This document shows positions 18,851 to 35,271 of a stretch of DNA of 64,000 nucleotides, in pieces (positions within the stretch are counted from its first letter, which is position 1; every line of letters starts with the position of its first letter). Origin of the DNA: Williamsia herbipolensis (GTDB taxonomy: Bacteria > Actinomycetota > Actinomycetes > Mycobacteriales > Mycobacteriaceae); the NCBI RefSeq assembly GCF_000964005.1, contig NZ_JXYP01000021.1:124001-188000 (forward strand). The letters run 5' to 3'. The translations under genes were made by a program, and so were the position numbers. The notes beneath the pieces were generated by a model. It saw nothing but the letters and a program-made list of their open reading frames with translations, searched no databases and was not told where the DNA came from.

Positions 18851-19663
18851 TCAGCGGAAGGTCGGGTACTCGGGTGACGAGACGTTGAACTGGGTGCCGT
18901 CGCGCGGCAACAGGTACTTCAGGGTGCGCGCCTTGTCGGCGGTGCGATCGGCGTCGCCCCACACCACGGTCCGGCGGTCGCGCAGGGTCAGGCGTACGTC
19001 GGCGGCCGAGGACGCCCCGACCTCGATGACCTGACGGCGTAGGACGTCGGGCAGCTCCGACACCACCTTCAGGGCGGCGAGGGTGGCGCGGTCCGACGAC
19101 GACGGGTTGCCGATCGTGATCCGCGGCACCGGCGGCAACTGCTTCTGCGAGGCGAAATCGACACCACCGACATCGAGCAGATGGGAGGCGCCGTCGCGGA
19201 TGACGAACGCCACGGCGACGCGTTCGACGACGTCGATGTCGATACCCGACGGGTAGCTGCGGGTGACGCGGACGGACTTGATGCGCGGGATGGCGGCGAC
19301 GCGCTCGGCGGCAGGACGCGTGTCGACCTGGAGCAGGGGCGTGCCGAGCGCGATCCGCGACGCGGCGACGATGCTCGCCGGGTCCACGGCCGATTCGCCG
19401 CTGACCGAGATCGACCGCACCGACATGAGCGGCGTCGCATAGGCGACCACGCCGGCGGCGATCACGAGGACGATCGCGGCGATGGTCCCCAGGAGCTTGC
19501 GGGTGCCGCGCACAGGGCGCCGTCCACGGCGCGGGCGACGTCGTCGTTCGCGTTCGTCGGTGTCGTCGTCGAGGAGGTCGTCGGCGTACCCGTCGTCCAG
19601 GTCGGCGTCGTCCACATCGGCGTCGTCGACGTCGGGATCGTAGGTGCTGGTGGTGCGGCTCAT
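18851..19663 (-). CDS. ftsQ: Cell division protein FtsQ
   Basis: A 270-residue bitopic divisome protein. The cytoplasmic N-terminus is strongly acidic, with repeated D-V-D-D-A-D units (residues about 8-30), then very basic [15 protein letters not shown] single membrane helix follows at about 57-77 ([17 protein letters not shown]). The POTRA domain begins [16 protein letters not shown], and the FtsQ beta domain ends at residue 270. The ATG overlaps murC by 4 bases (ATGA). FtsQ recruits the FtsL/FtsB-type partners to the septum. The aspartate repeats look like a small local expansion. Confidence 0.95.
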
Positions 19664-21216
19664 GGTGTCTCTCCTCGCCTGCGCAGCGCTTCGACGATCT
19701 CGGGGCCCTGCATGGTGATGTCGCCGGCCCCCAGGGTCAACACCACGTCACCCGGCGCCGCGAGGTCGGCCACCAGTTCGGCGACCTGCGAGAGATCGGG
19801 CGCGAAGACGACCGGGACGGTGACGAGATGGGCGATGGTCCGCCCGCTGATGCCGTCGAGCGGTTGTTCGCGCGCGCCGTAGACGTCGAGGACCACGACC
19901 TGGTCGGCGATGTCGAGCGCCTCGGCGAACTCCGCGGCGAACGTGGCTGTGCGCGAGTAGAGATGGGGCTGGAACACCGCGACGACGCGGCCGGTTCCGG
20001 CGGCGGCGACCAGCTCGCGGGCCGCGGTCAGCACCACCCGCACCTCGGTCGGGTGGTGGGCGTAGTCGTCGTACACCGCGACGTCACCCACACGACCGCG
20101 CAGCTGGAACCGTCGGTGGACCCCGGTGAAGCTCTCCACCCCGGCGATCACGCCGTCGGTCGGCGCGCCCGCCGACACCGCCGCCGCGATCGCGCCGAGG
20201 GCGTTGAGCGCCATGTGGACTCCCGGGACACCGAGGGCCACCAGGTGTTCGGAGTCCTCCCCCCGGCCCGCCGTGCCGGAGGCGCGCGAGCCGCCCGTGC
20301 CGGAGGCGCGCGAGCCGCCCGTGCCGGAGGCGAGCATTCCTCGCAGGGTGATGGCGGCCTGTCCCCCGACGCCGTGGACGTTCCAGCTGCGCAGGACCGC
20401 CGCGTGGTCGACCTCCGGGACACGATCGGCGAAGGTGCCTGCGCCGTAACCGATCACCCGCACCCCACGATCGAGCAGGCGGTGCACACTGCGGGCGGCG
20501 AGGTCGACCGATCCCGGGTCGTCGAGGCAGACCACCACGACGCCACCGGGTTCGGTCCGTTCGAGGAACTCGTCGAACACCGCCACGTAGGCCTCGGTGG
20601 TCCCGAAGTGGTCGAGGTGGTCGGATTCGACGTTGGTGATGACGACCACGTCGGGTCGGTACTGCAGCAACGAGCCGTCGCTCTCGTCGGCCTCGGCCAC
20701 GAAGACGGCGCCGGTGCCGTGGTGGGCGTTGGTCCCGGATTCGTTGAGCTCGCCGCCGACGGCGAACGACGGGTCGAGCCCGCAGTGCTGCAACGCCACG
20801 ACCACCATCGACGTCGTGGAGGTCTTGCCGTGGGTGCCCGCGATCAGCGCGGTGCGGTAGCCCTCCATCAGGGTGGCGAGCACCGCGGGGCGCAGCGTCA
20901 CGGGGATACCCCGCCGATGTGCCTCCACCAGTTCGGGATTCGTCTTCGGGATCGCCGCGTGGGTGGTGACGACGACGGTGGGACCGCCGTCGAGCTGGTC
21001 GAGCGCCGAGGCGTCGTGGCCTATACGGACCATGGCCCCGCGGGTGCGCAGCGCCTTCACGCCACGGCCGTCCTTCGCGTCCGATCCCGACACCTGCGCG
21101 CCCCGGGCGAGGAGGATCCGCGCGAGTCCCGACATCCCGGCACCGCCGATACCCACCATGTGGACCCGGGCGAGTTCGGCGGGCAACGCGGGCACGGGCG
21201 GCGTCGGGGGCGTCAC
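19660..21216 (-). CDS. murC: UDP-N-acetylmuramate--L-alanine ligase MurC
   Basis: The cytoplasmic ATP-dependent ligase that adds L-Ala to UDP-MurNAc, 518 residues. Motifs are the N-terminal [17 protein letters not shown], the P-loop [22 protein letters not shown] and the C-terminal [10 protein letters not shown]. The GTG start at 21216 overlaps murG by 4 bases (GTGA). It carries an unusual insertion, [20 protein letters not shown], before the C-terminal domain. This is encoded by a 24-bp tandem repeat and lies in a loop that is normally short. All catalytic motifs are kept, so the protein should be active. Confidence 0.97.
20272..20335. repeat. 24-bp tandem repeat inside murC
   Basis: Two perfect copies of a 24-base unit (20272-20295 and 20296-20319) and a 16-base partial third copy (differing at its end). 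The unit is a multiple of three, so it encodes an in-frame eight-residue Ser-Arg-Ala-Ser-Gly-Thr-Gly-Gly repeat. Copy number could change without breaking the gene. Confidence 0.9.
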
Positions 21217-22346
21217 GACGACCCCCGCCGCGCCCGGGCGGCGTCGAGTCCTGCCTGTGCGACGGCGGCGGCCGCGTCGCGGTGCCCGACCTGACGGGCG
21301 CCCTGCGACATCACCGCAAGGCGGTCGGGGTCGCCGAGGAGACCGGGCACGGTGTCGGCGACCCACTGCGCGGTCAGGTCCGCGTCGTCGAGCAACACAC
21401 CGCCGCCGGCCTCGACGACGGGCAGCGCGTTCAGACGCTGCTCGCCGTTGCCGTGGGGCAACGGGACGTAGACGGCGGGCAGACCGGTGGCGGAGATCTC
21501 GGCGACGGTCATCGCGCCGGACCGGCAGATCACGAGATCGGCTGCGGCGTAGGCGAGATCCATGCGTTTGAGATAGCCGACCGAGACGTACGGGGGCGCC
21601 CCGGGCGGCGACGACGGTGCCACGGTGTTCTTCGGACCGTGCGCGTGCAGTACACCGATCCCGGCTCGACCGAGTGCGTCGGCGGAGTCGGCGACCGCCT
21701 CGTTGATGGTGCGCGCGCCCTGCGATCCACCGAAGGCGAGCAGGGTCGGCGCATCGGGGTCGAGTCCGAAGTAGTGACGGGCCTGGGCGCGGGTGGCGGC
21801 ACGGTCGAGGCTCGCCAGGGATCCACGCACGGGGATGCCGACCACCTCGGCGTCGAGGCCGGAGCCGTCGACGGCGGCGAGGACCCGGTCGGCGAAACGC
21901 GCACCGACCTTGTTGGCGATGCCTGCGCTGGCGTTCGCCTCGTGGATCACCACCGGGATCCGCGAGCGACGCAGGACGTGTCCCCGCGCGGCGAGGTACG
22001 CCGGCAGCGCCACGTACCCGCCGAAGCCGATGACCACGTCGGCGTCGACGGCGGCGAGGATGCGTCGGGTGGCGCGCACCGACGACCGCAGACGCAGCGG
22101 GACCGAGAACAGGTCGCGATTGACCTTCCGCGGCAGCGGGACCGGCGGGATCATCTCGAGGGTGTAGCCGCGGTCGGGCACGAGGGTGCGTTCCAGCCCA
22201 CGCGGTGTCCCCAGGGCGGTGATGCGTGCGTCGGGCTCGATCGCCCGGATCGCGTCGGCCACGGCCAGGGCCGGCTCGATGTGGCCGGCGGTGCCACCCC
22301 CGGCCACCACGACCGAGATCGGCCCGTCGCGGTCGGTGCGGCTCAC
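21213..22346 (-). CDS. murG: UDP-GlcNAc--lipid I N-acetylglucosaminyltransferase MurG
   Basis: The membrane-associated GT28 enzyme that converts lipid I to lipid II, 377 residues. The first glycine loop is [20 protein letters not shown], the second is [14 protein letters not shown], and the UDP-GlcNAc motif is [25 protein letters not shown] followed by GNGEQRLNA. The GTG at 22346 overlaps the ftsW stop by 4 bases; upstream in-frame sequence has the composition of an ftsW shadow. It is part of the tightly coupled murD-ftsW-murG-murC-ftsQ run. Confidence 0.97.
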
Positions 22347-24022
22347 CGGCGGTACCTCGGGCTCACGGTGCCGTCGTGACGCGAAGCGCGGGCCGTCGGC
22401 ATCGCCTCCGGGTAGGTGCGGTAGCGCACGCGCGGGGCCGAACGGCCCTGTCCCCCGGTGTCGTATCGGCGTGGACGTCCGGCGTCGTGGGCGTCGGCCC
22501 CGTACCACTCGGGGGCGTATCGGGTGCTCGGGTACTCCGCGCGTGCCCGGACGCTACGGCCCGACCGTGCGCCGCGGCGACCGGTGGGTTCGGGATGGGG
22601 TGCGGAGGCACCGAACCCGAAGTAGGCGGCCGGCCCGCGGCGGGCGGTGCGGCGGTCGGGGGGGCGGGGATCGGTCGCGGCGGTGCGGACTCGCGGGGGT
22701 GCGGTGCGCGACGGCAGACCCGACGGATCGGCCAGGCGGTCGCGGCGCGCGCGCCAGGCCTGGACGCGCGGTGCCGCGTACGACTCGGGTTGCGGCAGGC
22801 GCAGGAACCGGCCGATGCGTCCGTCACCTCCCGCGGCGAGCGCGGCGACGGCCTCGGGTTCGTGGCGCGCGGCGTTGGCGAGCAGGCCCAACATCACCAG
22901 GACGGTGAACGTCGACGTACCTCCGGCCGACAGCAGGGGCAGCTGGATACCGGTGACCGGGAGCAGGCCGATGACGTAGCCGATGTTGATCAGTGCCTGG
23001 GCGCTGATGAGCACGGTGATGGTCGCGGTCATCATCCGCAGGAAGGGGTCGACGGCCCGCAGTGCGATGCGCAGTCCGACGAAGGCCAGCAGGACGAACA
23101 GTCCGATGACCAGCAACCCGCCCAGCAGGCCCAGTTCCTCGCCGATGATCGCGAAGATGAAGTCGTTGTGGGCGTTGGGCAGATAGTTCCACTTCGCGCG
23201 GCTCTGCCCGAGACCCTGACCGAACAGTCCGCCGTTGGCGAGCGCGTACCGGGCCTGTCGCGCCTGGTATCCCGCACCCTGCGGGTCGTCGATGTTGCCC
23301 AGGAAGCTCTGCACGCGCTCGGAACGGTATCCCTCGACCATCGCGAGCACGATCGCCATGGCCGCGCCGGAGACCACGAAGATCGCGAAGACCTTGAGGT
23401 GCAGGCCGGCGAACCACAGCAGGGTGCCGACGATGATGGCGATGGTGATGGTCGTCGAGAGGTTGGGCTCGAGGATGATCAGCGTGCAGATGAGCATCGC
23501 GACCGGCACCAGCGGGACCAGCAACTCCTTGAGCGACGCGTGGTCACGCAACCGCGCGGAGAGCAGGTGGGCCCCCCACACGCAGAGGGCCAGCTTCACG
23601 AGTTCGGAGGGCTGGATCGAGAGGCCGCCGACCACGAACCAGCGCTGCGCGCCCTGGCTCTCGGTGCCGACGCCCGGGATGAGGACCAACGCGAGCAGCA
23701 GCGTGGTCACGAAGATCGACGGCACCGCGAGGCGACGCATGAACCGCACCGGGATGCGCAGTGCGACATAGAACAGCACCGTGCCGAGGATCGCGAACAC
23801 CACCTGGGTGGTGAACAGGCCGTAGGCCGAGCCGCTCTTGGAGTAACCCTCCACCGACGACGCCGAGAGGACCATCACCAGGCCGAACACGGTGAGGATC
23901 ACCGTGAGCGTCACGATCAGGTGGAACGACGCGAGCGGCCTGCGCAGGACGGCGTCGATGACGCCGCGCGGGCCGTCCCACCACGCTCCGGCGCGGCGTA
24001 CGCCGTCGGACGCGGCGGTCAT
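22343..24022 (-). CDS. ftsW: SEDS peptidoglycan glycosyltransferase FtsW
   Basis: The septal glycan polymerase, which works with PbpB. The protein has 559 residues and about ten membrane segments between residues 35 and 410. SEDS signatures include [47 protein letters not shown] and [10 protein letters not shown]. The cytoplasmic C-terminus is extended by about 150 residues, rich in Arg, Pro and Gly (for example [20 protein letters not shown]). A long tail of this kind is known to bind FtsZ in mycobacteria. The ATG overlaps murD by 4 bases. Confidence 0.97.
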
Positions 24023-25647
24023 CGGCGTACCGACGAGTCGCTCGGGCCCGCCGGGGTGGCACCGATCGCGACGGCGGCCCGCGCGAAGGAGTCACCGCGC
24101 ACCCCGTAGCCGGCGAACATGTCGAGGGAGGCCGCGGCCGGGGCGAGCAACACGGCATCGGGCCGGCCACCGGCGGCGCGGTCGGACTCGATCATCGACC
24201 AGGCCGCGACGAGAGCCGCATCCATCACGCGGTCGGCCGCGGGCGCCTCGTCGCTGCGTCGCGTGTCGGCCTCGTGGGCCGAGCGGGCGGCGGCACGGGC
24301 GGCCTCGACGCCGTCGGACGGGGCGGTCGCGAGGCCGTCGACGGCGGGTGGCGCGAGCGGCGTGGCTGTCACCCGGCCATCGTCCCCTGTGAACAGTGTG
24401 ACTGTTGGGATTGCAGGGGCGTGTCGCGCAATCGCCGACGCCACCAGCTCGCGGTCGGTACCGATCGCCACCACACCGGCCAGTCGATCGGCCGTCGCGG
24501 CGAACAGATCGTCGACCGCGGCACCCTTCAGCAGTCCGCCGGCCACCAGGACCACACGCTCGTGCGCGTCGATCGACGCGTGCGCCGCGTGGGGGTTCGT
24601 CGCCTTCGAGTCGTCGACGAACGCCACCCCGTCGAGCGTGGCGACGGTCTCACCCCGGTGACGGCCCGGGACGAAACCGGCGAGCCCGACCGCGACGGCA
24701 TCGATGTCGACGCCCACGGCCAGACACAGCGCTGCGGCCGCGGCGGCGTCGACGATCCCCGACGGACCGGCCGGGCGGATGTCGTCGATGGGCAGGATGG
24801 TGCGCGGCGACTCCCCCGGCGCGGTGAACGCGCGGTCGGTGAGGACACCGGCCTCGACACCGATGTCGTCGCCGATCGGAGCGCCGACGCGCACGCCGAT
24901 CGTGCGGGCGCCCGGCGTCGTGGCCGACAGTGCGCCCGCGACGGGGTCGTCGGCGCCGACCACCGCGATCGGTCCGCGCAGGGCGCCGACCTTCGCCGTG
25001 ACGTAGGCATCCATCGAGCCGTGCCAGTCGAGGTGGTCCTCGGCGATGTTGAGCACGACACCGGCGTCGGGGACCACCGACGGCGCCCAGTGCAACTGGA
25101 ACGACGACATCTCGACGGCCAGGATCTCGACCCGCGGTGTGCGGGTGAGGGCGTCGAGCACCGGCAACCCGATGTTGCCGCAGGCGGCCACCGTGTGCGG
25201 CGACGCCTCGACGATGGCCTCGACCATCGAGGTGGTGGTGGTCTTGCCGTTGGTCCCGGTGATGACCACCCAGGTCCGTCGTGGGCCGAGGAGTCCGGAT
25301 GCGTCCACGCGCCAGGCGAGTTCGACCTCACCCCAGATAGGTATCCGCGCGGCGCGAGCGGCGAGCACCAGCGGCGAGTCGGGCCGGAACCCCGGTGACA
25401 CGACCAGGAGGTCGGCCCGCAGGTCGGCGACCGCGGCGTCGACGCTCACCACCGCGACACCGGCGTCGGCGAGGGCCGCACCTGACGCGGGTCGGCCGTC
25501 GGCGACGGTCACCACCGCGCCGTGTGCGGCGAGGAACCGGGCGGCCGACGCGCCCGCGGTCCCGGCTCCGGCGACGACGACGCGCAGACCGGGGAGATCG
25601 GGCAGCGTCGCGGGAGCAGCGGCGCCTCCTCGGCTCACCTCACCCAC
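24019..25647 (-). CDS. murD: UDP-N-acetylmuramoylalanine--D-glutamate ligase MurD
   Basis: The ligase that adds D-Glu to UDP-MurNAc-L-Ala, 542 residues. N-terminal Rossmann domain [22 protein letters not shown]-loop [16 protein letters not shown], then [14 protein letters not shown] and [17 protein letters not shown]. It is longer than the usual 450 residues because of an Ala/Asp-rich stretch of about 70 residues between about 430 and 500 (for example [20 protein letters not shown]). That stretch lies near the C-terminal domain and may be a flexible insertion. The GTG start overlaps mraY by 8 bases (GTGGGTGA). Confidence 0.96.
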
Positions 25648-26737
25648 CGTTGGACGTCAGGAACTCGCTGTAGAAGAGCGACAGGCCCAGCGCGCACGCG
25701 ATCGCGGTCAGCAGCCAGAACCGGATGATGACCGTGGTCTCCGCCCAGCCACCGAGCTCGAAGTGGTGGTGGAAGGGCGCCATGCGGAACACCCGTCGCC
25801 CGGTGGTGCGGAAGAACGCGATCTGCATGACCACCGAGACGATCTCGGCGACGAAGAGCGCGCCGACCACGACCATGAGCAGCTCGGTGCGGGTGGTGAT
25901 CGACAGCCCCGCGAGCATGCCACCCAGCGCCAGCGAGCCGGTGTCACCCATGAAGATCTTCGCCGGTGCGGCGTTCCACCACAGGAAGCCCAGGCACGCG
26001 CCACCACCGGCCACCGCGATCAGCGCGAGGTCGAGGGGGTCGCGCACGTTGTAACAGCCCGCGCTGACCTCCGTGCCCGCCTTGGGGCCACCCGAGCATG
26101 CGTTGCGGTACTGCCAGAAGGTGACGAGCACGTACGAGCCGAGGACCATCGCCATCGAACCGGCGGCCAGGCCGTCGAGACCGTCGGTGAAGTTGACCGC
26201 GTTCGACCACGCGGCGACGACGAGCCAGCAGAAGATGACGAAGGCGACCGAGCCGAGGGTGACCGCGTTGATGTCGCGGACGTACGACAGCTTCACGCTC
26301 GCCGGCGCGTCACCGTTGCCGTTGCGGAACTGCAGGGCCAGCACGCCGAACAGCAGGGCGGCGACGAGCTGCCCGACCGATTTGGCGGTCTTGTTGAGGC
26401 CGAGGTTGCGTTGCTTGCGGATCTTGATGAAGTCGTCGAGGAACCCGACGCCGCCGAGGACGGTCGCGAGCGAGAGCACCAGGATCCCCGAGGCACTCGG
26501 ACCCTGACCGCCGTTGATGAGACCGGTGAGGTGCGACGCCCAGTAGCCCGCCCACAGGGCGGCGATGATGGCGACGCCACCCATCGACGGGGTGCCGCGC
26601 TTGGTCTGGTGGCTCTGGGGACCCTCGACGCGGATCTCCTGCCCGAAACCCTGGCGCGAGAACACCCGGATGAGCACCGGGGTCAGCAGGATCGACACCG
26701 CGAGCGCGACCGCGCCCGCTATCAGGATCTGCGTCAC
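25640..26737 (-). CDS. mraY: Phospho-N-acetylmuramoyl-pentapeptide transferase MraY (MurX)
   Basis: The integral membrane enzyme that forms lipid I on decaprenyl phosphate, 365 residues with ten expected membrane helices. Motifs are [16 protein letters not shown], the aspartate-rich [25 protein letters not shown] and the C-terminal [19 protein letters not shown]. The GTG start at 26737 gives a normal family length. An upstream ATG would add 36 residues with no family match. A 52-base gap separates it from the truncated murF. Confidence 0.97.
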
Positions 26738-26789
26738 CTTCTCGTCTCCGTCCGGGGTCGTCTCGAGGGCAGTGTCTCGGGTGGGTGGG

Positions 26790-27302
26790 TCAGCGTTCGG
26801 TCCCGTCCGGGGACTCCACGAGTGTGGCCACACACCGTTGGTCATCCAACAGGTTGCGCGTGACCGCCGACAAATCGGATCCGTCGCCCGCGACGAGCAC
26901 CACGTCGCCGTCGCCGATCTCGGCCACCAGCATCTCCACCGCGGCGTCGGCGTCGGCGACCATCCGCGCCTCGTCGCCCCACGAACCCTCCATCACCGCT
27001 CCCTGATGCAGCGCGCGCACGACACGGGTCTCACCCACCGCGATCACGATGTCGACGGCGAGTCGCACGGCCAGCCGACCCACCCGATCGTGGGCGACGG
27101 CACGGTCGTTGTCGGGTTCGGGGCCGTTCCATTCCCCGAGCACGGCCCAGCTGCGACCGCCGCCCGCGTCGCGGCCTCCCTCGCGGGCGGTCTGCACCAG
27201 CGTCCGCAGCGCGTCGCGCACGCGGTTCGTCGCCTCGTCGGTGCCCGACACCGCCGTCGTCGGGGCGCCGGCGAGGTCGATCACGCGGATGTGGGGGGTC
27301 AT
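26790..27302 (-). CDS. MurF C-terminal-domain remnant at the murF locus (truncated, degenerate)
   Basis: The position between murE and mraY should hold murF, a ligase of about 500 residues. Here only 170 residues are encoded. They match the MurF C-terminal domain in order: [11 protein letters not shown] aligns with the usual VLGEM, then [34 protein letters not shown] and [18 protein letters not shown]. The N-terminal substrate domain and the central ATPase domain (GxxGKT/S) are absent. The usual DDAYNANPDSM motif has become [14 protein letters not shown] and the usual lysine after DVVLV is gone. The ATG overlaps murE by 4 bases, so the gene has a clean, coupled start and no frameshift. It cannot be an active ligase. 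A full MurF must be encoded elsewhere, or a deletion or assembly error has occurred here. Confidence 0.85.
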
Positions 27303-28924
27303 GTCGTCTCCTGACGGTCGGCGAGGGCCCGCCGCACCACGTCGCGGTCGTCGAAGGGGTGCTTCACGCCGGCGATCTCCTGCCCGCTCTCGTGGCCCTT
27401 GCCCGCGACGAGGACGGTGTCGCCGGCCCGCGCCCACGCGACCGCGTGGGCGATCGCGGCCGCTCGGTCACCGATCTCGACGATCGGCTCCGATCCGGTC
27501 GGTCGCTCGCCCCGCGCCACCTTCTCTGCGCCGGCTCGCACCTCGGCGCGGATGGCGGCGGGGTCCTCGTCGCGGGGGTTGTCGTCGGTCACGATCACCA
27601 GGTGGGCGCCCCGGGCCGCGGCCTCCCCCATCAGCGGACGTTTGCCTGTGTCGCGGTTGCCGCCGGCACCGACCACGACCGCGAGTCGACCGCTGGTCTG
27701 TCCCCGCAGGGTCGCGATGACCGCCTCGACGGCGGCGGGCTTGTGGGCGTAGTCGACGACAGCGAGGAAGTCCTGGCCCTCGTCGACCAGCTCGACACGA
27801 CCCGGGACCGCGACCCCGGCGATGCCCGCGACGGCGTCGGTGATCGACACCCCGGCGGCGTCGGCGATGGCCAGCGCGATCAGGGCGTTGGCGACGTTGT
27901 ACCGACCGGGAAGGGGCACCCGCAGGGTGTGTGGTGTGCCCTGGGGGTCGCGGACGGTGACGACCTGCGACCCGTCGTCGCGCAGCCGGGACGGTCCGGC
28001 GTACCAGTCGGCCGAGCTGTGGCGTGTCGACACGGTGACCACGCCGTGACCGACGATCTCCGACATCCTGGCACCCCACTCGTCGTCGACGCAGACGACC
28101 GATCGGTGGGCGTGCTCGGGCGAATCAGGCCGGAACAGACGAGCTTTCGCCTCGAAGTAGTCGACCATCGTGGGGTGGAAGTCGAGGTGGTCCTGCGAGA
28201 GATTCGTGAAACCGCCGATGGCGAAGGAACTCCCGCGGACCCGGCCGAGCTCGAGGGCGTGGCTCGACACCTCCATCACCACGGTGTCGACACCCTGTTC
28301 GCACATCGCGGCGAGCATCCCCTGCAGCGCGGGCGCCTCGGGGGTGGTGAGCGAACTGTCCTGGCGCACACCGGCGACGCGTGTCTCGACGGTGCCGATG
28401 AGTCCCACGGTCTGACCCGCGGCCATCAGGGCGGCCTCGGTGAGATAGCTCGAGGTGGTCTTGCCGGAGGTCCCGGTGATACCGATCAGACGCAGTCGCA
28501 GCGACGGGTTCCCGTACACGCGGGCGCTGAGGTCACCGAGGACGCTGCGCGGATCGGGATGGACGAGCAGTACGAACGACGGCGTCGGCGTGTCCGCGGC
28601 GGCCATCGCCTCGGTGACGAGCGCGGCACCGGCGGAGTCGGTGAGCACGGCCGCGGCGCCTGCGGAGATGGCCTGGGCGGCGAACTGCGCTCCGTGGGCG
28701 CGCGCGCCGGGCAGGGCCGCGAACAGATCTCCCGGGCGGGTGTCCTGTGCACGCAGGGTCACTCCGGTGACGCCGACGTCCGGTGACGCCGACCCGACGA
28801 GATCGATACGGGCGCCCGACGCGGCGGCCAGCGTGTCGACCCCGCAGGGTTCCACCCGGCCCGGTCGGGTCGGGTCGGCGGGCGCCGGGATCGGTTGCGG
28901 GTGTCGCGTCCCCGATTCGGTCAT
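27299..28924 (-). CDS. murE: UDP-MurNAc-L-Ala-D-Glu--meso-diaminopimelate ligase MurE
   Basis: The ligase that adds the third peptide residue, 541 residues. All three domains are present: N-terminal [20 protein letters not shown] and [13 protein letters not shown]-loop [29 protein letters not shown] and the C-terminal [18 protein letters not shown]. The specificity motif DNPR ([11 protein letters not shown]) marks meso-diaminopimelate as substrate, as expected for a mycolic-acid bacterium. The ATG at 28924 is followed by a Pro-rich 30-residue extension. The gene ends complete, right at the start of the murF remnant. Confidence 0.97.
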
Positions 28925-29061
28925 CGCGCACCCCTCTCGTTCGCCTCGTTCGCGGCGGGCGTCCCCGCACGAGTCCTGCTGTTCGGTCGAGCGACCGCCC
29001 GGCAGATCACCCTACGCGGCGTCGGTCCGGGTCCGGATCGTCGGCGACGGCGCGCCGGAGG

Positions 29062-30996
29062 TCAGACCGCCTGCAGGATCATCTTCGGTGTCGGGCTCGT
29101 CGAGAGCGGGACGCGGTCGCGCTGCAGCATCCACGCGGCGATGCTCTCGAACAGCGGTGCGGCCGACTGGCCACCCGATCCGTCGGTGCTCCGGGTCGGG
29201 CGGTCGAGCATGATGCCGACGACGAAGCGCGGGTTGTCGGCGGGCGTGATGCCCGCGAAGGTGATGTTGTAGTTCGAGTTGGAGTAACACCCGCAGTTGG
29301 GGTCCACCTGCTGTGCGGTACCCGTCTTCGCGCTGACCTGATATCCCGGTACCGCACCCTTCGATCCGGTGCCCTGCTGTTCACCGGTCGGATCCGACTG
29401 CACGATGGCACGGAACATGTTGCGCACGGTGGTCGCCGTCTGCGGGCTGACCACGCGCACACCCGCCGGCGGATCGGCGGCGTCGTCGCCGGTGGACTTG
29501 ATGATCCGCGGGGCGACACGCAGCCCGTCGTTGGCGATCGTCTGGTACATGCTCGTCATCTGCAGCAGCGTCATCGAGAGGCCCTGTCCGATGGGGAGGT
29601 TGGCGAACGTACCCCCCGACCACTGGCTCCGGGCGGGAACGTCGCCCGCGCTCTCGCCGGGCAGGCCGACCTGCGTCCGCTGGCCGAGACCGAAGCGCTG
29701 CAACATGTTCGCGAACCGGTCCTGACCGACCTGCTTGGCCAGCATCAGCGTCCCGACGTTCGAGGACTTCCCGAAGATGCCGGTGGTGGTGTACGGCGCG
29801 ACGCCGTGCACCCACGCGTCGCGCACGGTCACCCCGGCGAGATCGATGCTGCCCGGCACCTGGTGCACCTGCGTGGGATCGGTCAACCCGTATTCGATGG
29901 CCGCCGAAGCGGTCACGAGCTTGTTCACCGAACCCGGTTCGAACGGCGACGTCACCGGCAGGTCGCCCAACTGGGCGCTGCCCTGTTCGGCCAGCGGCTT
30001 CGCGGGGTTGAAGGTGTTGTCGTTGGCCATCGCGATCACCTCGCCGGTCTTGGCGTCGAGCACCACCGCCGAGGCGTTGCGGGCACCGGAGAGCTCCTTG
30101 GCCTTCTGCACCTGGTTCTGCACGAACCACTGCACGTCGGAGTCGATGGTCAGCTCGACGGTCTTGCCGTTCTCGGCCGGGTGCACGTTGCGGGTGCTGC
30201 CGGGGATCACCGCACCGTCGGAGCCGCGGTCATAGGTCTGTGAACCGTCGGTGCCCGCGAGCGCCGAGTCCATCGACGACTCCAGGCCGATCAGCCCGTT
30301 GCCGTCGAAGTCGACGTCGCCCACGATGTTCGCGGCGAGCGGGCCCCCGGGGTAGAGACGGATGTCCTGCCGTTCGGCACCGACCTCCGGGAACTCGTCG
30401 GTGATCTTTCCCGCCACCTCGGGGCTGACCGACCGCGCGAGGTAGACGAAGGGCTCGGAGCTGGCCAACTGCTGCTGGAGCGACTCCTGCGACACCGCGC
30501 CGCCGAGGAGATCGTGGACCCGGGAGGCGATCTGGCGGATCCGGGTCGCCGAGTCCGGCACCGACGGATCCTTGGCGTGGGCGGCGTCGATCGCCGCGCG
30601 CTCACGTACCGGCTGGAAGGTGAGGGCTCGCGCCTCGTCGGTGTAGGCGATGGGCTTGCCGTTGCGGTCGACGATGGCGCCCCGCTTGGCGGGCAACGTC
30701 TCGACCACGGCGCGCTGGTCGGCGGCCTGCGCCGACAGCGACGACGACTCGACCGTCTGCAACATCAACAGCTTTCCGGCAACCAACGCGACGGCGAGAC
30801 CCATCACCAATGCACCGAGACGCGTTCGCGTGATGAACTGCCGCGCCCCGTCGCCGCGCGCGGTGACGCCGGCGTCGTCGCGGATACCCGCCGAGTACGC
30901 GCGGCGGGGCCGTGCCCGTGAGTCGGCACGGTTGGCCGCTCCGGACGCCGACTTGCGCGCGGCCGCCGGTGGTCGTCGTCGCTTGTCGGCGCTCAT
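29062..30996 (-). CDS. pbpB: Penicillin-binding protein PbpB / FtsI (class B, septal transpeptidase)
   Basis: A 644-residue class B PBP. A basic cytoplasmic N-terminus is followed by one membrane helix at about 57-78, the dimerisation domain starting RGAIVDRNGKPIAYT, and the transpeptidase domain. Active-site motifs are SVNK (Ser356, Lys359), SSN (411-413) and KTG (557-559). It cross-links septal peptidoglycan with FtsW. It follows the ftsL-like gene after 138 bases and is followed by a 137-base gap before murE. No PASTA domain is seen. Confidence 0.97.
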   Translation of the reverse strand: MSADKRRRPPAAARKSASGAANRADSRARPRRAYSAGIRDDAGVTARGDGARQFITRTRLGALVMGLAVALVAGKLLMLQTVESSSLSAQAADQRAVVETLPAKRGAIVDRNGKPIAYTDEARALTFQPVRERAAIDAAHAKDPSVPDSATRIRQIASRVHDLLGGAVSQESLQQQLASSEPFVYLARSVSPEVAGKITDEFPEVGAERQDIRLYPGGPLAANIVGDVDFDGNGLIGLESSMDSALAGTDGSQTYDRGSDGAVIPGSTRNVHPAENGKTVELTIDSDVQWFVQNQVQKAKELSGARNASAVVLDAKTGEVIAMANDNTFNPAKPLAEQGSAQLGDLPVTSPFEPGSVNKLVTASAAIEYGLTDPTQVHQVPGSIDLAGVTVRDAWVHGVAPYTTTGIFGKSSNVGTLMLAKQVGQDRFANMLQRFGLGQRTQVGLPGESAGDVPARSQWSGGTFANLPIGQGLSMTLLQMTSMYQTIANDGLRVAPRIIKSTGDDAADPPAGVRVVSPQTATTVRNMFRAIVQSDPTGEQQGTGSKGAVPGYQVSAKTGTAQQVDPNCGCYSNSNYNITFAGITPADNPRFVVGIMLDRPTRSTDGSGGQSAAPLFESIAAWMLQRDRVPLSTSPTPKMILQAV

Positions 30997-31134
30997 CGGC
31001 GACCGCGATCACTCGACGCGAGCACACCGGGACATGGCGCGTCGTCGACGCACATGCGAGAAGCTGACATGACCCAATTCTCCACTGTGTGAACGATTTC
31101 GGCCCGCATCACCATCGGCGTGGCGTGGTCGCGA

Positions 31135-32094
31135 TCAGCGCGGGGTCTGCGAATCGGCCGAACCGGGCGCGGTCTGCACGGACCCCGACGGGGTGGTACC
31201 CGTTCGCGGCGCGCCCGAATTCGTGGACGGTGCAGCCGATCCCGAGGGCGCCGAATCGGCGGTGGGGTTCGGGGCCGTGGTGTTCGGAGCCGTCGCGCTC
31301 CCGGAGGCGCCCGGCAACACGTTCGAGGCCATCGGTTCGTCGGCCGCAGCTCCCGGCACCCCTGCCGACGCGGGGAGCGACGCGGTGTTGCCGGCGGTGG
31401 ACGAACCCGGTTGCGGGGTCACGGCGGTGGGCCGACCGGCGTTCATCGACGGTGCCGCGGTCCCGGTGGCGGGCGCGATCTCGCCCTCGACACGGGTGCG
31501 ACCGTCGGGTGCGACGACGAGACGTGGCACGTTGCTCGCCGGGATCATCCCCAATGCGGTTGCCTTGTCGGACAGTTCGGGTGCCGAGTCACCGGACTCG
31601 AAGGACTTCTTCAGGGCGTCCCGGCGGTCGATGAGCGTCTGGTTCTCCTGGCGTTTCGCGGAGAGTTCGTAGGACGTCTGTGCGGCGGTCGTCGACAGCC
31701 ACAATGTGAGACCGAGACCGACGGCGAGGATCGCGACGACCAGGACGGCGAACGGCATCCGCCGCAACAGATCTGCGGGCGATGCGATGATACGGGCGAG
31801 GACGCCACCGGTCGGCCGTTCGCGGCGGTCGACGAGAGTGGTCGTCGACCGCTGGGTCGCGCGACGACGGCGGCGATCGATGGCACGCTGCGCCGCCGGA
31901 GACCGGTTCTCCCGCGGCCGGTCGGCGACACCGGTGCGATCGCGACGACGCCGCGTCCCCGATGCCGATCCGCCCGCCTCGTCGAGATCGGGATCCCAGT
32001 CGGTGTCCGTCGCATCGGAGTTCGGCGAACCGCTGTGGGGCGCATCGGTGTCGGTCGCCCCGGCGACGAACGCGCCTCGGTCTGCCACGGTCAT
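31135..32094 (-). CDS. FtsL-like divisome membrane protein with long Pro/Ser/Thr-rich tail (Rv2164c-like)
   Basis: A 319-residue bitopic protein in the ftsL position between rsmH and pbpB. The N-terminal cytoplasmic part (about 110 residues) is charged. One membrane helix lies at about 113-133 (FAVLVVAILAVGLGLTLWLS), followed by a short heptad segment TSYELSAKRQENQTLIDRRDALKKSF typical of FtsL/FtsB. The last 120 or so residues are low-complexity Pro, Ser, Thr, Ala and Gly, as in the mycobacterial proline-rich Rv2164c family. The ATG at 32094 has a GGAGG ribosome site 7 bases upstream. The role as FtsL partner of FtsQ is inferred from position and topology. Confidence 0.85.
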   Translation of the reverse strand: MTVADRGAFVAGATDTDAPHSGSPNSDATDTDWDPDLDEAGGSASGTRRRRDRTGVADRPRENRSPAAQRAIDRRRRRATQRSTTTLVDRRERPTGGVLARIIASPADLLRRMPFAVLVVAILAVGLGLTLWLSTTAAQTSYELSAKRQENQTLIDRRDALKKSFESGDSAPELSDKATALGMIPASNVPRLVVAPDGRTRVEGEIAPATGTAAPSMNAGRPTAVTPQPGSSTAGNTASLPASAGVPGAAADEPMASNVLPGASGSATAPNTTAPNPTADSAPSGSAAPSTNSGAPRTGTTPSGSVQTAPGSADSQTPR

Positions 32095-32179
32095 CGCCGT
32101 ACCTCCATCGTCACGACATCCGTCGCCGTCTCGTTCATCTCGTGCGTCGTGCGTGCGTCCTCGGGTGCCCGGGTCGCGC

Positions 32180-33157
32180 TCATCGAGGGGCCAGTCGTTC
32201 GATCGCGCGGAGTCGAACCGGAGCCGACCGCGGGTTCGACGCGATCTCGGTCTCGTCGGCACGCTCGGCCCCGCGGGTGACCAGCCGGTACTCGGGCGCG
32301 GTGCCGGGGAGGTCGAACGGCAGTCCGGGCGGCGTCGTCGAGGTCACCCGATGTGCGAACTCCCGCTTGACGATGCGGTCCTCGAGCGACTGGTAGCTCA
32401 TCACCACCAGACGGCCACCCACGGCGAGGTGGTCGACGGCCGCAGGGATCGCCAGCTGCAGCGATTCCATCTCGCGGTTGACCTCGATGCGCAGCGCCTG
32501 GAAGGTGCGCTTGGCCGGGTGGCCACCGGTCCGACGGGTGGCCGCGGGGATCGCCCGATAGAGCAGCTCCACCAGTCGGGCGCTGGTGTCGAAGGGTTGG
32601 TGCTCCCGCTCACGGAGGACGGCCGAGGCGATCTTGCCCGCGAATCGTTCCTCGCCGTATTCCGACAGCACACGGGCGATCTCGCCGTGGGAGTAGGTGT
32701 TGAGGATGTCGGCGGCGGTCAGCGTGTCGTTGTCGTTCATCCGCATGTCGAGCGGGGCGTCGACGGAGTACGCGAACCCGCGATCGTGCTGGTCGAGCTG
32801 CATCGACGAGACGCCGAGGTCGAACAGGGCCGCGTCGTATCGGGTTCGACCGCTGTCGGTGAGGACATCGGCGATCTCGTCGTAACGTCGCCGGACGATG
32901 GTGACGCGATCGGCGAAGGGCGCCAACCGCTCCGACGCCGACGACACGGCGTTGCCGTCGCGATCGATGGCGATGATCGCGACGCCGGGGAACCGCTGCG
33001 CGACGAGTTCACTGTGGCCGCCGGCACCCAGTGTCGCATCGACGAACGTGGGGCCGGTGCCGTCGGGGGCGGTGTGCGTGAGGGCGGGAGCGATGAGGTC
33101 GATCATCCGGTCCGCCATCACCGGTATGTGACCGTGTTCGCCCGACTTGTGCTCCAC
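32180..33157 (-). CDS. rsmH: 16S rRNA (cytosine-1402-N4)-methyltransferase RsmH (MraW)
   Basis: A SAM-dependent rRNA methyltransferase of 325 residues. The N-terminal [18 protein letters not shown] loop [34 protein letters not shown] and the C-terminal [17 protein letters not shown] are characteristic. The GTG at 33157 ([14 protein letters not shown]) has an AAAGG site 7 bases upstream and gives the family length. The frame is open for 250 more codons upstream but that is mostly an mraZ shadow. It is second in the dcw cluster. Confidence 0.96.
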
Positions 33158-33211
33158 CGGAGGCCTTTCGGAGTGGCTGCGCACTGCGGTGCGGGTCGAT
33201 CGGACCGGTCG

Positions 33212-33242
33212 CCGGCAGCACGACATGACGTCGTGCTGTCGG
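33212..33242 (-). other. Strong inverted repeat in the mraZ-rsmH leader
   Basis: CAGCACGAC-atgac-GTCGTGCTG is a perfect 9-base-pair hairpin that extends to 13 pairs with one G-U. It stands about 55 bases before rsmH in a 245-base gap without a gene. No T-tract follows on the minus strand. It could be an attenuator, an RNA processing site or a protein-binding palindrome. I see nothing else in the gap. Confidence 0.6.
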
Positions 33243-33402
33243 CGCGGCCGGGAGGTCGCTGCGGTGAGTACGGGTCCCTGCCCGATGACGGACCTGGCGC
33301 TGGGGAAGTGCGCCAGGGACGTCTCGGGCAGAGGCCTGAACTCGCCGAGGCGAACCGGGCCGTGCGGTCCCGCCGAGGTCCTCCGGCGGCGGGACCCGGT
33401 GA

Positions 33403-33834
33403 TCACAGGATGTTCTCCAGGGACGGGTTGTCGGCACGCGAGAAGCTCTCCTCGTGCTGGGACTCGTACTGCTCCCAGGCCTGGGCATCCCAGATCTCGA
33501 CGTAGTCGTAGTTGCCGATCACCGCGCATTCCTTGGTGAGGCCTGCATAGGTCCGGTGCTTGGACGACAGGGTGATCCGTCCCTGTGCGTCCGGCACCAT
33601 CTCCTCGGTGCTGGAGTTGAGATGACGCTGATACATCCGCGCCTTCTCGTCCACCTTGGACGCCGCGGCGGCTCGTTTCGCCCGCTCCACGAAGTCCTCG
33701 GGCAGGTAGATCGCGAGGCTGTGGTCCTGACCGCGAGTGACCATCATCCCTCCTGCCAACTGCTCTCGAAACTTCGCGGGAAGCGTGAGCCGCCCTTTGT
33801 CGTCCAACTTGTGCAGGTGTGTGCCGAGGAACAT
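33403..33834 (-). CDS. mraZ: Transcriptional regulator MraZ
   Basis: The first gene of the dcw cluster, encoding a 143-residue double AbrB-like (SpoVT-fold) DNA-binding protein that forms rings and controls its own operon. Both halves are seen: [20 protein letters not shown], and about residues 77-95 the second copy with [20 protein letters not shown]. The ATG at 33834 has a GGGGAG ribosome site and the universal MFLGTH N-terminus. Phased GTGG repeats just upstream are probable autoregulatory sites. Confidence 0.96.
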
Positions 33835-33893
33835 GTTCTCCCCACACCTCCTGCCGGGCGGAGTCGCGAGTCCGGCACTCTCTCCTCCGTGCA

Positions 33894-33924
33894 CCACAGT
33901 ACCCCACTTCGCCCCACTTTCCAC
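33894..33924 (-). promoter_or_regulatory. Probable MraZ operator (phased GTGG repeats)
   Basis: On the minus strand, GTGG tetramers begin at 33924, 33917, 33907 and 33897; the last three are exactly 10 bases apart, with GTGGGG at the middle two. MraZ proteins are known to bind short G-rich direct repeats (MraZ boxes) upstream of mraZ. The array lies 60-90 bases before the mraZ start. A precise -35/-10 pair was not assigned. Confidence 0.65.
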
Positions 33925-34090
33925 CCCCAGATGGGCAGTGAGTTCGGACCGGAGTACAAAACAGCAGGTCAAAGATAGGAAAAGTGGTGGGGCGACCGGA
34001 CGCCCGTCGGTCGATGCCGGTTCAGTCGACCTGGGCTTTCGTCATCAGAGAATGCCCACATCAGCCGCCGAGCGCCTGTGGGCGATCGCG

Positions 34091-34134
34091 GTGGAGGAAA
34101 GTGGGGATCGGTGGATACGCGGGGGACGCGGTGG
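34091..34134 (+). promoter_or_regulatory. Second array of 10-bp-phased GTGG repeats
   Basis: On the plus strand GTGG begins at 34091, 34101, 34111 and 34131, with GGGG at 34121, so the 10-base phase is unbroken over five steps. It includes GGAAAGTGGGG, the same string as in the mraZ-proximal array but on the other strand. It lies in the 406-base gap between mraZ and the DUF3040 gene, which otherwise holds no gene. A link to MraZ is an inference. Confidence 0.4.
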
Positions 34135-34168
34135 CGGCCCGGCCGGCGGTCACCCCGAGAACGACGAA

Positions 34169-34195
34169 ACCGCGCACCGGGAATCGGTGCGCGGT
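34169..34195 (-). terminator. Terminator hairpin downstream of the DUF3040 gene
   Basis: ACCGCGCACCG and its exact complement (11 base pairs) flank a five-base loop GGAAT. It lies 46 bases past the DUF3040 stop and upstream of the dcw cluster, so it separates the two transcription units. Confidence 0.75.
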
Positions 34196-34240
34196 CTCGT
34201 GTGTGAGGTCAGTGCGGGACTGTCGAGGCCCCGCAGAGGA

Positions 34241-34648
34241 TCATTCCTGTTCGAACCGTCGGTTGAAGCGCTCTTCCATCCGCTCACTGAACGAGCGTGA
34301 GCCGTTGCCCCGCGGACGACGTCCCGTCGAGGACTCCGAGGTGGCTCCCGACGCCGGCGGCGCGGACGAGCCGATGCCCCACAACGCGATGAGCCCGGCG
34401 GCGAACATGACGAGGAATCCGACGAGGCTGAGGATCGGGAACCCGCCGACCGTGACGTCGACGACCAGTCCGCCGATCAGCAACAGCAACCCCACGACGA
34501 ACAGAACCGCGGCCTGCAGACGTTTACGCGTGGTCGACCCGCCGCGTACCCGCCGACGCCGGACATTCGACGCGAACTTGGGATCTTCGGCGTACAGCGC
34601 GTTCTCGATCTGTTCGAGCATTCGCTGCTCGTGCTCCGAGAGTGGCAC
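34241..34648 (-). CDS. DUF3040 family membrane protein (Rv2169c-like)
   Basis: A 135-residue protein beginning MPLSEHEQRMLEQIENALYA, followed by DPKFASNVRRRR, the signature of the actinobacterial DUF3040 family. Two membrane helices at about 45-65 and 70-92 follow, then a Ser/Gly/Arg-rich tail ending SFSERMEERFNRRFEQ. The gene lies next to mraZ in mycobacteria too. Function unknown. A GGAGG-like ribosome site precedes the ATG. Confidence 0.9.
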   Translation of the reverse strand: MPLSEHEQRMLEQIENALYAEDPKFASNVRRRRVRGGSTTRKRLQAAVLFVVGLLLLIGGLVVDVTVGGFPILSLVGFLVMFAAGLIALWGIGSSAPPASGATSESSTGRRPRGNGSRSFSERMEERFNRRFEQE

Positions 34649-34785
34649 CGCCCCTCCTTACAGCACTTCGGTCCGGTGACCGGACGGTGTCCAACGCATA
34701 CCCGCGGCAGGTGTGTCGGGGTCGGTGGGCTCGTGTCGCGAGCCCTGGTGTCGATGATACGAGGTGATCGAGAAACCGACCACCA

Positions 34786-35271
34786 TTACCCGGCTGAGAG
34801 TTCGGTCCGAGTCGCCGACCGGTGGCCTGCGGTCACCCGCGTCCCGTGCTCGAAGGCGACGACCTGCGCCCGCACGTCCTCCAGGAAGTCGGCGAGACGG
34901 GTCCGGGTGGCCTGCACACTCCGGGGATCGACATCGCGGACGACGCCCAGTTCGATGTCGGCTCGCAGACGCGAGAGCCCCGCGAAGTAGGTGGCCCAGG
35001 TGGTGAGCTCCGGCAGGGCCCGCGGCAGGCGCGCCCAGGCGCTGACCGGGCCCCGACGTGGGCGGGCGGTGGATTTCTCCCCGACCACCAGGGCGGCACC
35101 GGCCGCACGCAGGGCGGCGAGGTACAGCGCGCGGAGCTGCTCGGTCGGTTCGGGCGAGTCGTCCGCGTGCGCAGCCATGGCCTCGGCGCGACCGAGCAGT
35201 TCGCGGGCGCGCAGTGCGAGTCGTGGGTCGACCGTGGTGGTGCGCCGTGTCGTCGTACGTGTCCCCGTCAT
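34786..35271 (-). CDS. SAV_6107-family HEPN domain protein
   Basis: A 161-residue, mostly helical protein. A Thr/Arg-rich N-terminus (TGTRTTTRRTTTVDPRLALR) leads into helices with ARELLGRAEAMAAHA, EQLRALYLAALRAAGAALVV and LPRALPELTTWATYFAGLSR. This arrangement matches the actinobacterial SAV_6107 HEPN family as I know it; no RxxxxH catalytic motif of toxin-type HEPN ribonucleases is apparent. The ATG at 35271 is 8 bases from GAGAGGGG. Role unknown; conserved beside the dcw cluster. Confidence 0.7.
   Translation of the reverse strand: MTGTRTTTRRTTTVDPRLALRARELLGRAEAMAAHADDSPEPTEQLRALYLAALRAAGAALVVGEKSTARPRRGPVSAWARLPRALPELTTWATYFAGLSRLRADIELGVVRDVDPRSVQATRTRLADFLEDVRAQVVAFEHGTRVTAGHRSATRTELSAG

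Follow-up and report, generated by a model that had tools for sequence, protein, structure and literature searches.

Apparent retention of a non-catalytic MurF C-terminal domain in the murF slot of Gordonia and Williamsia genomes that carry a second MurF

The Mur ligases are familiar from textbooks and serve as drug targets. Among them, MurF, the UDP-MurNAc-tripeptide:D-Ala-D-Ala ligase (model TIGR01143; E. coli structure 1GG4), is the enzyme with which the gene described here has first to be compared. MurT is a Mur-ligase relative that has a C-terminal domain of its own kind (PF08353, MurT_C) and acts with a partner protein in the MurT/GatD complex. The solved structure 8r5o, which we take to be PAP11, the MurE-like subunit of plastid RNA polymerase, is a further example of a Mur-ligase-derived protein, one that is used outside wall-precursor synthesis. 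PAP11 is a long multi-domain protein that works in transcription. That one gene can replace another, the old copy being lost, is also well known.

In Bordetella pertussis, a MurE-MurF fusion was reported to bind MurG, and a MurG-scaffolded complex was proposed (PMC6420597). MurF fused to MurE can therefore work. In Mycobacterium tuberculosis, a protein-fragment-complementation study described signals of MurF with DdlA and the NamH homologue, given by MurF alone among the Mur ligases, and signals with PknA, PknB, FtsZ, FtsW, FtsQ, Wag31 and SepF, which were common to MurF and the other Mur ligases (PMC3605390). Figure 5 of that study was later corrected (PMC10965061). The locus described below may bear on the question of whether Mur ligases act within a physical complex.

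The window is the whole stretch of 64,000 nucleotides of Williamsia herbipolensis DNA that was analyzed. The features of the window used in this analysis are the following:

25640..26737, minus strand: mraY, the downstream neighbour (TIGR00445, 274.3 bits, above the cut-off; GTG start inferred from relatives)
26790..27302, minus strand: stand-alone gene for a MurF C-terminal domain (170 amino acids) in the murF slot; all 71 genomes examined have such a gene
26967..27011, minus strand: stretch of residues 98-112 (15 residues), which many native MurFs of the order have and the replacing MurF lacks
26967..27092, minus strand: conserved core, residues 71-112, from the conservation table of 71 short domains versus 46 native C-domain rows (dN/dS 0.059)
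27299..27302, minus strand: ATGA, the murE stop codon overlapping the start of the short gene; a 4-base overlap is found in relatives
27299..28924, minus strand: murE, the upstream neighbour (TIGR01085, 476.7 bits, above the cut-off)

The initial annotation had described the murF slot as reduced to a 170-codon gene for the C-terminal domain, with a clean ATGA start on the murE stop codon, an unbroken frame, the first two MurF domains gone and the motifs changed, and each of these observations held. The open reading frame in the place of murF, between murE and mraY, encodes 170 amino acids without an internal stop codon. Mur_ligase_C, with 36 bits, was the only Pfam family above its cut-off (28.4 bits) in the product. 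The match to the MurF model TIGR01143 was confined to positions 310-405 of 418 and scored 33.6 bits, where 288.6 would be required. The Pfam search of the product gave no match to the N-terminal Mur_ligase domain (PF01225) or to Mur_ligase_M, YNANP was absent, and alanine instead of lysine followed DVVLV. While the slot, the start overlap and the C-terminal domain match are those of MurF, the product lacks the N-terminal and P-loop domains as well as YNANP and the DVVLV lysine, and hence it cannot be a ligase alone. The P-loop, YNAN and the lysine motif VK[AG]S were each found in 0 of the 71 short domains. MurT differs from the short gene product in having a ligase middle domain, and it is separately present in the window's genome; PAP11 differs in that the short gene is a single C-terminal domain kept inside the wall operon. 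Native MurF as the query against solved structures matched E. coli MurF and others, 8r5o among them. The profile of the short domains gave a best match at E 0.048 in the same kind of search, and nothing convincing by sequence.

As the initial annotation had advised, the rest of the genome was searched for a full MurF with a P-loop, and one was found. The genome is a draft assembly of 50 contigs and 4,744,957 bases (first contig, 428,335 bases), in which the Mur ligase middle domain (Mur_ligase_M) occurs at six places. Five of these are MurE, MurD and MurC in the cluster, FolC on contig 18 and MurT on contig 49; the first four were assigned above the NCBIfam cut-offs, and MurT was assigned by Pfam MurT_C, with an NCBIfam score below the cut-off. 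The only full MurF, a protein of 443 amino acids, is encoded on contig 7 (G000, positions 94389-95717), outside the mur cluster. It scores 371.7 bits to TIGR01143 (cut-off, 288.6), carries the P-loop GVTGSVGKTS, NDSYNANPTSM and VLVKGS, and has a complete C-terminal domain of its own by Pfam. Gene order or a domain match alone would thus misname the murF slot in the clade of Gordonia and Williamsia. In the region examined around the full gene (positions 89000-101000), it adjoins genes for a CorA-like transporter and an acyltransferase (Pfam CorA and Acyl_transf_3). This neighbourhood is common to several Williamsia genomes, G013 and G017, and hardly to the Gordonia genome G015, to G019 or to f3, a further family of the order.

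We compared the window's genome and 60 relatives for the two genes. A MurF at least 60% identical to the contig 7 MurF was present in 15 of these 61 genomes, namely, 8 of the window's genus, G013, G015, G017, G019 and G023, plus G038 and G053 of family f3. In 45 genomes, the only MurF was 46 to 51% identical to the contig 7 MurF, and the incomplete genome G021 gave no match to it. The short domain was in the mur cluster of 13 of the 15 genomes with the contig 7-type MurF, the exceptions being both f3 genomes. In the window's genus, the slot held the short gene and not a full murF in each of the 8 genomes, that of the window among them, so that the full-length murF in close relatives that would have refuted the initial annotation was not seen; all 8 also had the second MurF. 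The two occurred together in G013, G017, G019 and G023 as well, and in Gordonia the short domain was found in 59 of 59 genomes and the second MurF in 59 of 59. The slot was examined in 71 genomes (59 of Gordonia, 8 of the window's genus and the four just named), and 71 of 71 of these Gordonia and Williamsia-type genomes had both parts. Genus g9 was identified as Gordonia because G110, G087 and G091 match three named Gordonia contigs without a difference over about 3.8 kb. DNA identity likewise assigns G006 to Williamsia deligens and G023 to W. sterculiae.

The size of the kept domain ranges from 148 to 215 amino acids across the clade. It adjoins murE in 71 of 71 genomes and mraY in 70 of 71, since G069 has no mraY in the stretch used. 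The Gordonia genome G069 also has an extra MurF-like match on contig 6 (9717-10979), 41% identical and with three stop codons inside; this genome has a contamination estimate of 3%, and the match could come from foreign sequence or from an additional copy that is broken.

In the f3 genomes G038 (L090) and G053 (L089), the native murF has been wholly lost between murE and mraY, with no domain kept, and a contig 7-type MurF is found elsewhere. Only 88 and 103 bases separate the murE and mraY open reading frames there, and neither f3 genome was among the matches listed in one scan, which covered the best 80 loci. These two genomes are a second, cleaner case of MurF replacement, and retention of the C-terminal domain is therefore not universal.

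The short gene is separate from murE in 53 of the 71 genomes. Its start codon overlaps the murE stop codon by 4 bases in 50 of these 53 cases (29 ATG and 21 GTG), and relatives with a full native murF have ATGA or GTGA at the murE stop in 17 of 18 cases. In the other 18 genomes, all Gordonia, the short domain is fused in frame to the C terminus of MurE. For example, a single open reading frame of 699 amino acids in G015 contains a complete MurE and the short domain. Pfam found only the three domains of MurE in this fusion, with one middle domain; the added part was too diverged for Pfam and was recognised by its 47% identity to the window protein (E 8.9e-21). A bifunctional enzyme with complete MurF domains on MurE was not found among the 18 fusions, which carry the C-terminal domain only. 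The B. pertussis fusion is similar in having MurF sequence at the C terminus of MurE, within a proposed Mur complex. However, its MurF is complete and active (PMC6420597), whereas the 18 Gordonia genomes carry only the non-catalytic C-terminal domain on MurE and have their full MurF elsewhere.

The fused or separate state changed 5 times on a quick murE and mraY tree that contained 70 of the 71 genomes and 17 of the 18 fused ones, and at least 4 of the changes were forced by starred (well-supported) branches. Among close Gordonia relatives, the domain is fused in G083 (L190) and separate in G118 (L211) and G076 (L196), so fusion or splitting has been recent there. Since adjacent genes with a 4-base overlap may fuse easily, the fusions are weak evidence of a contact with MurE.

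Selection on the short gene was measured in 24 independent close pairs. Over the whole gene, the dN/dS ratio was 0.256. It was 0.059 in residues 71-112, a core whose limits were set after the conservation table had been seen, and 0.342 in the remainder. For comparison, the ratios in the same pairs were 0.121 for murE and 0.043 for mraY, each taken as a partial stretch. In an earlier set of 34 pairs, the median was 0.32 and the maximum 0.81, with all values below 1; the across-genus pairs of that set appeared to be dS-saturated in high-G+C DNA, and we therefore relied on the 24 closer pairs. There pN was below pS for the short gene in 24 of 24, so the dN/dS check that the initial annotation had proposed points to purifying selection. 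The same annotation had called the gene degenerate. This description fits the catalytic motifs and the ends of the protein, but not the core of about 40 residues, which is nearly as constrained as mraY.

In the conservation table, the 71 short domains were compared with those native C-domain rows that have EGSWG, 46 out of 70 (44 distinct, two genomes appearing twice). The catalytic positions NDSYNANPxSxxA, the EL of MxELG and KAS have been lost in the short domains. On the other hand, R50, W52, HD71-72, GR75-76, VRL79-81, VG89-90, R93, QGA100-102, EGSWG105-109, E111 and D133 are kept at a weighted 0.92 to 1.00, and Q100, M104 and R93 are more uniform in the short domains than in native MurF. 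Both EGSWG and QG...EGSWG were found in 71 of 71 short domains (QGA in 65 and QGT in six), a count that is not wholly independent of how the domains were found, because they were located by motif patterns with alternatives, each of the 71 having come from a prior homology search.

None of the 50 second-MurF loci, which encode 44 distinct proteins, and none of the 27 Acidimicrobiia-type loci had EGSWG; among the native loci, 46 of 69 had it. The catalytic motifs of the second MurF (P-loop, YNANP and VKGS) were present in 50 of 50 loci (44 distinct proteins). These loci are those that passed a sequence-cutting script which required the P-loop and YNAN, i.e., 50 of 50 second-MurF, 27 of 32 Acidimicrobiia-type and 69 of 73 native loci, the rest being dropped. 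Some native MurFs have no EGSWG, for example those of Corynebacterium and two from the family to which the window belongs, and the stretch is thus probably not needed for the chemistry. As judged from these sequences, neither an assembly gap nor decay accounts for the short gene, which encodes a non-catalytic domain that has been conserved.

The carriers of the short domain formed one clade with support of 99/99 in an mraY tree of 47 rows, which included 19 of the 59 Gordonia genomes, and a single replacement is therefore enough. In a quick MurF tree of 91 rows, which used every second native row, the second MurF fell among sequences from Acidimicrobiia and comparable actinomycetes, of which many are metagenome bins, the inner forks near it standing at 80 to 94, unstarred. 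In a careful MurF tree of 53 rows chosen by hand, the native MurFs were on one side of a branch supported at 100/100. Constraining the second MurF to group with the MurF native to the family cost 393 log-likelihood units and was rejected (p-AU 1.4e-64), in an AU test made after a tree had been viewed. Since the f3 MurFs fell inside the second-MurF group in both MurF trees, this MurF probably moved between families, in one direction or the other.

The view that an ancestor of the Gordonia and Williamsia clade acquired a full MurF related to that of Acidimicrobiia, at another chromosomal site, is supported by these gene trees. Descent of the short gene from the native murF is indicated by its operon slot, its start overlap and the EGSWG stretch of the family. 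Two domains, the first and the second, have been lost from the native murF. The simplest route would be a deletion inside the gene, in frame and after the replacement, which would have kept the C-terminal domain and the start overlap with murE.

We propose, with a probability of about 0.55, that MurF was replaced, that the first two domains of the old enzyme were deleted, and that its C-terminal domain was retained as a docking or adaptor module. The replacement, the loss of two domains and of catalysis, the retention under selection and the repeated fusion to MurE are supported parts of this proposal. The short domain would act near MurE as a non-catalytic module, either separately or as a C-terminal extension of MurE. 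In the native enzyme, the C-terminal domain may have held contact with the cytoplasmic wall-synthesis machinery through the HDxxGRxAVRL and QGA-MEGSWG-EA stretches; the incoming MurF lacked EGSWG, and the old domain could have stayed beside MurE to keep that contact. By analogy with M. tuberculosis MurF, the candidate partners would be Ddl, NamH, the PknA/PknB kinases, or the division proteins Wag31, SepF and FtsW. Counting against docking, the two f3 genomes kept no domain, and the region outside the core evolves fast. The M. tuberculosis study saw no Mur-Mur signal (PMC3605390), which also counts against the proposal.

The initial annotation had offered two readings, a relic that outlived the takeover by a second full murF and a domain that had gained a new role. 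A second full murF was indeed found, and a new role for the domain is supported, its nature being presumably that of the proposed module; a passive relic does not agree with the data. Decay after replacement would account for the lost catalytic motifs and for the faster evolution outside the core. However, no internal stop codon was found in 71 of 71 short domains, neither a broken frame nor a dN/dS near 1 was seen, purifying selection was evident, and the gene is present in every Gordonia genome and every genome of the window's genus. A pseudogene is rejected by the dN/dS values and the intact frames, and we consider it extremely improbable. Even less credit can be given to a deletion of about 1 kb introduced by assembly or sequencing, which the same annotation had allowed for and which a window in a 50-contig draft assembly might invite. 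All 71 genomes have the reduced gene next to murE, several of the assemblies consist of a single contig, and the only full MurF of the window's genome is located elsewhere; a gap in assembly could not turn up 71 times over and was therefore rejected.

Two further explanations assign the short gene another role. It could be a spacer, a short open reading frame kept only for the travel of ribosomes from murE to mraY, its amino acids being irrelevant. The 4-base overlap with murE in most stand-alone cases would suit a spacer, but the selection on amino acids (the pooled core dN/dS, pN below pS in every pair and the constant QG...EGSWG) largely rejects it; moreover, the two f3 genomes manage with their short murE-mraY gaps, and in the 18 fused Gordonia genomes the open reading frame is no longer a separate cistron. 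We therefore regard a spacer as very unlikely. Alternatively, the domain may be an allosteric or regulatory subunit, a pseudoenzyme regulator that folds on MurE or the replacing MurF and tunes its activity, e.g., by sensing a nucleotide or a precursor. The repeated in-frame fusion to the C terminus of MurE, the start overlap with murE and the conserved core are all compatible with such a subunit. On the other hand, the replacing MurF has a complete C-terminal domain of its own, and nothing in the tests run points to a ligand, which leaves regulation a possible but rather doubtful explanation.

If the docking or adaptor reading is correct, the retained piece of the old enzyme would have a second job, as its sequence conservation suggests. 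Extended to mycobacterial-type MurF in general, the reading would mean that the C-terminal domain has a separable non-catalytic function, probably docking via QGA-MEGSWG, which this clade kept either free or on MurE; we would give that extension an even chance. Evolution seems to have split the chemistry, now with the incoming MurF, from another function, now with the kept domain and its near-invariant motif. The short domain is a small, expressible handle that may serve in finding the partner of MurF in mycobacterial relatives. No description of a short MurF C-domain gene was found in the open-licence literature searched. What appears to be new is that one non-catalytic domain of an old enzyme is constrained across 71 genomes, whether it still occupies its original slot or has been joined to the enzyme encoded next to it.

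That the short gene serves as a promoter or terminator was rejected on promoter, terminator and Rfam searches. The region 25600-28000 contained no consensus promoter or terminator, the promoter search covering sigma-70-like sites, and Rfam over 19000-35000 gave no match at the short gene at the gathering threshold. The Rfam search did find an mraW RNA (RF01746) at 33252..33353 on the minus strand of the window, with 67.6 bits (gathering threshold, 50), near the head of the division and cell wall cluster.
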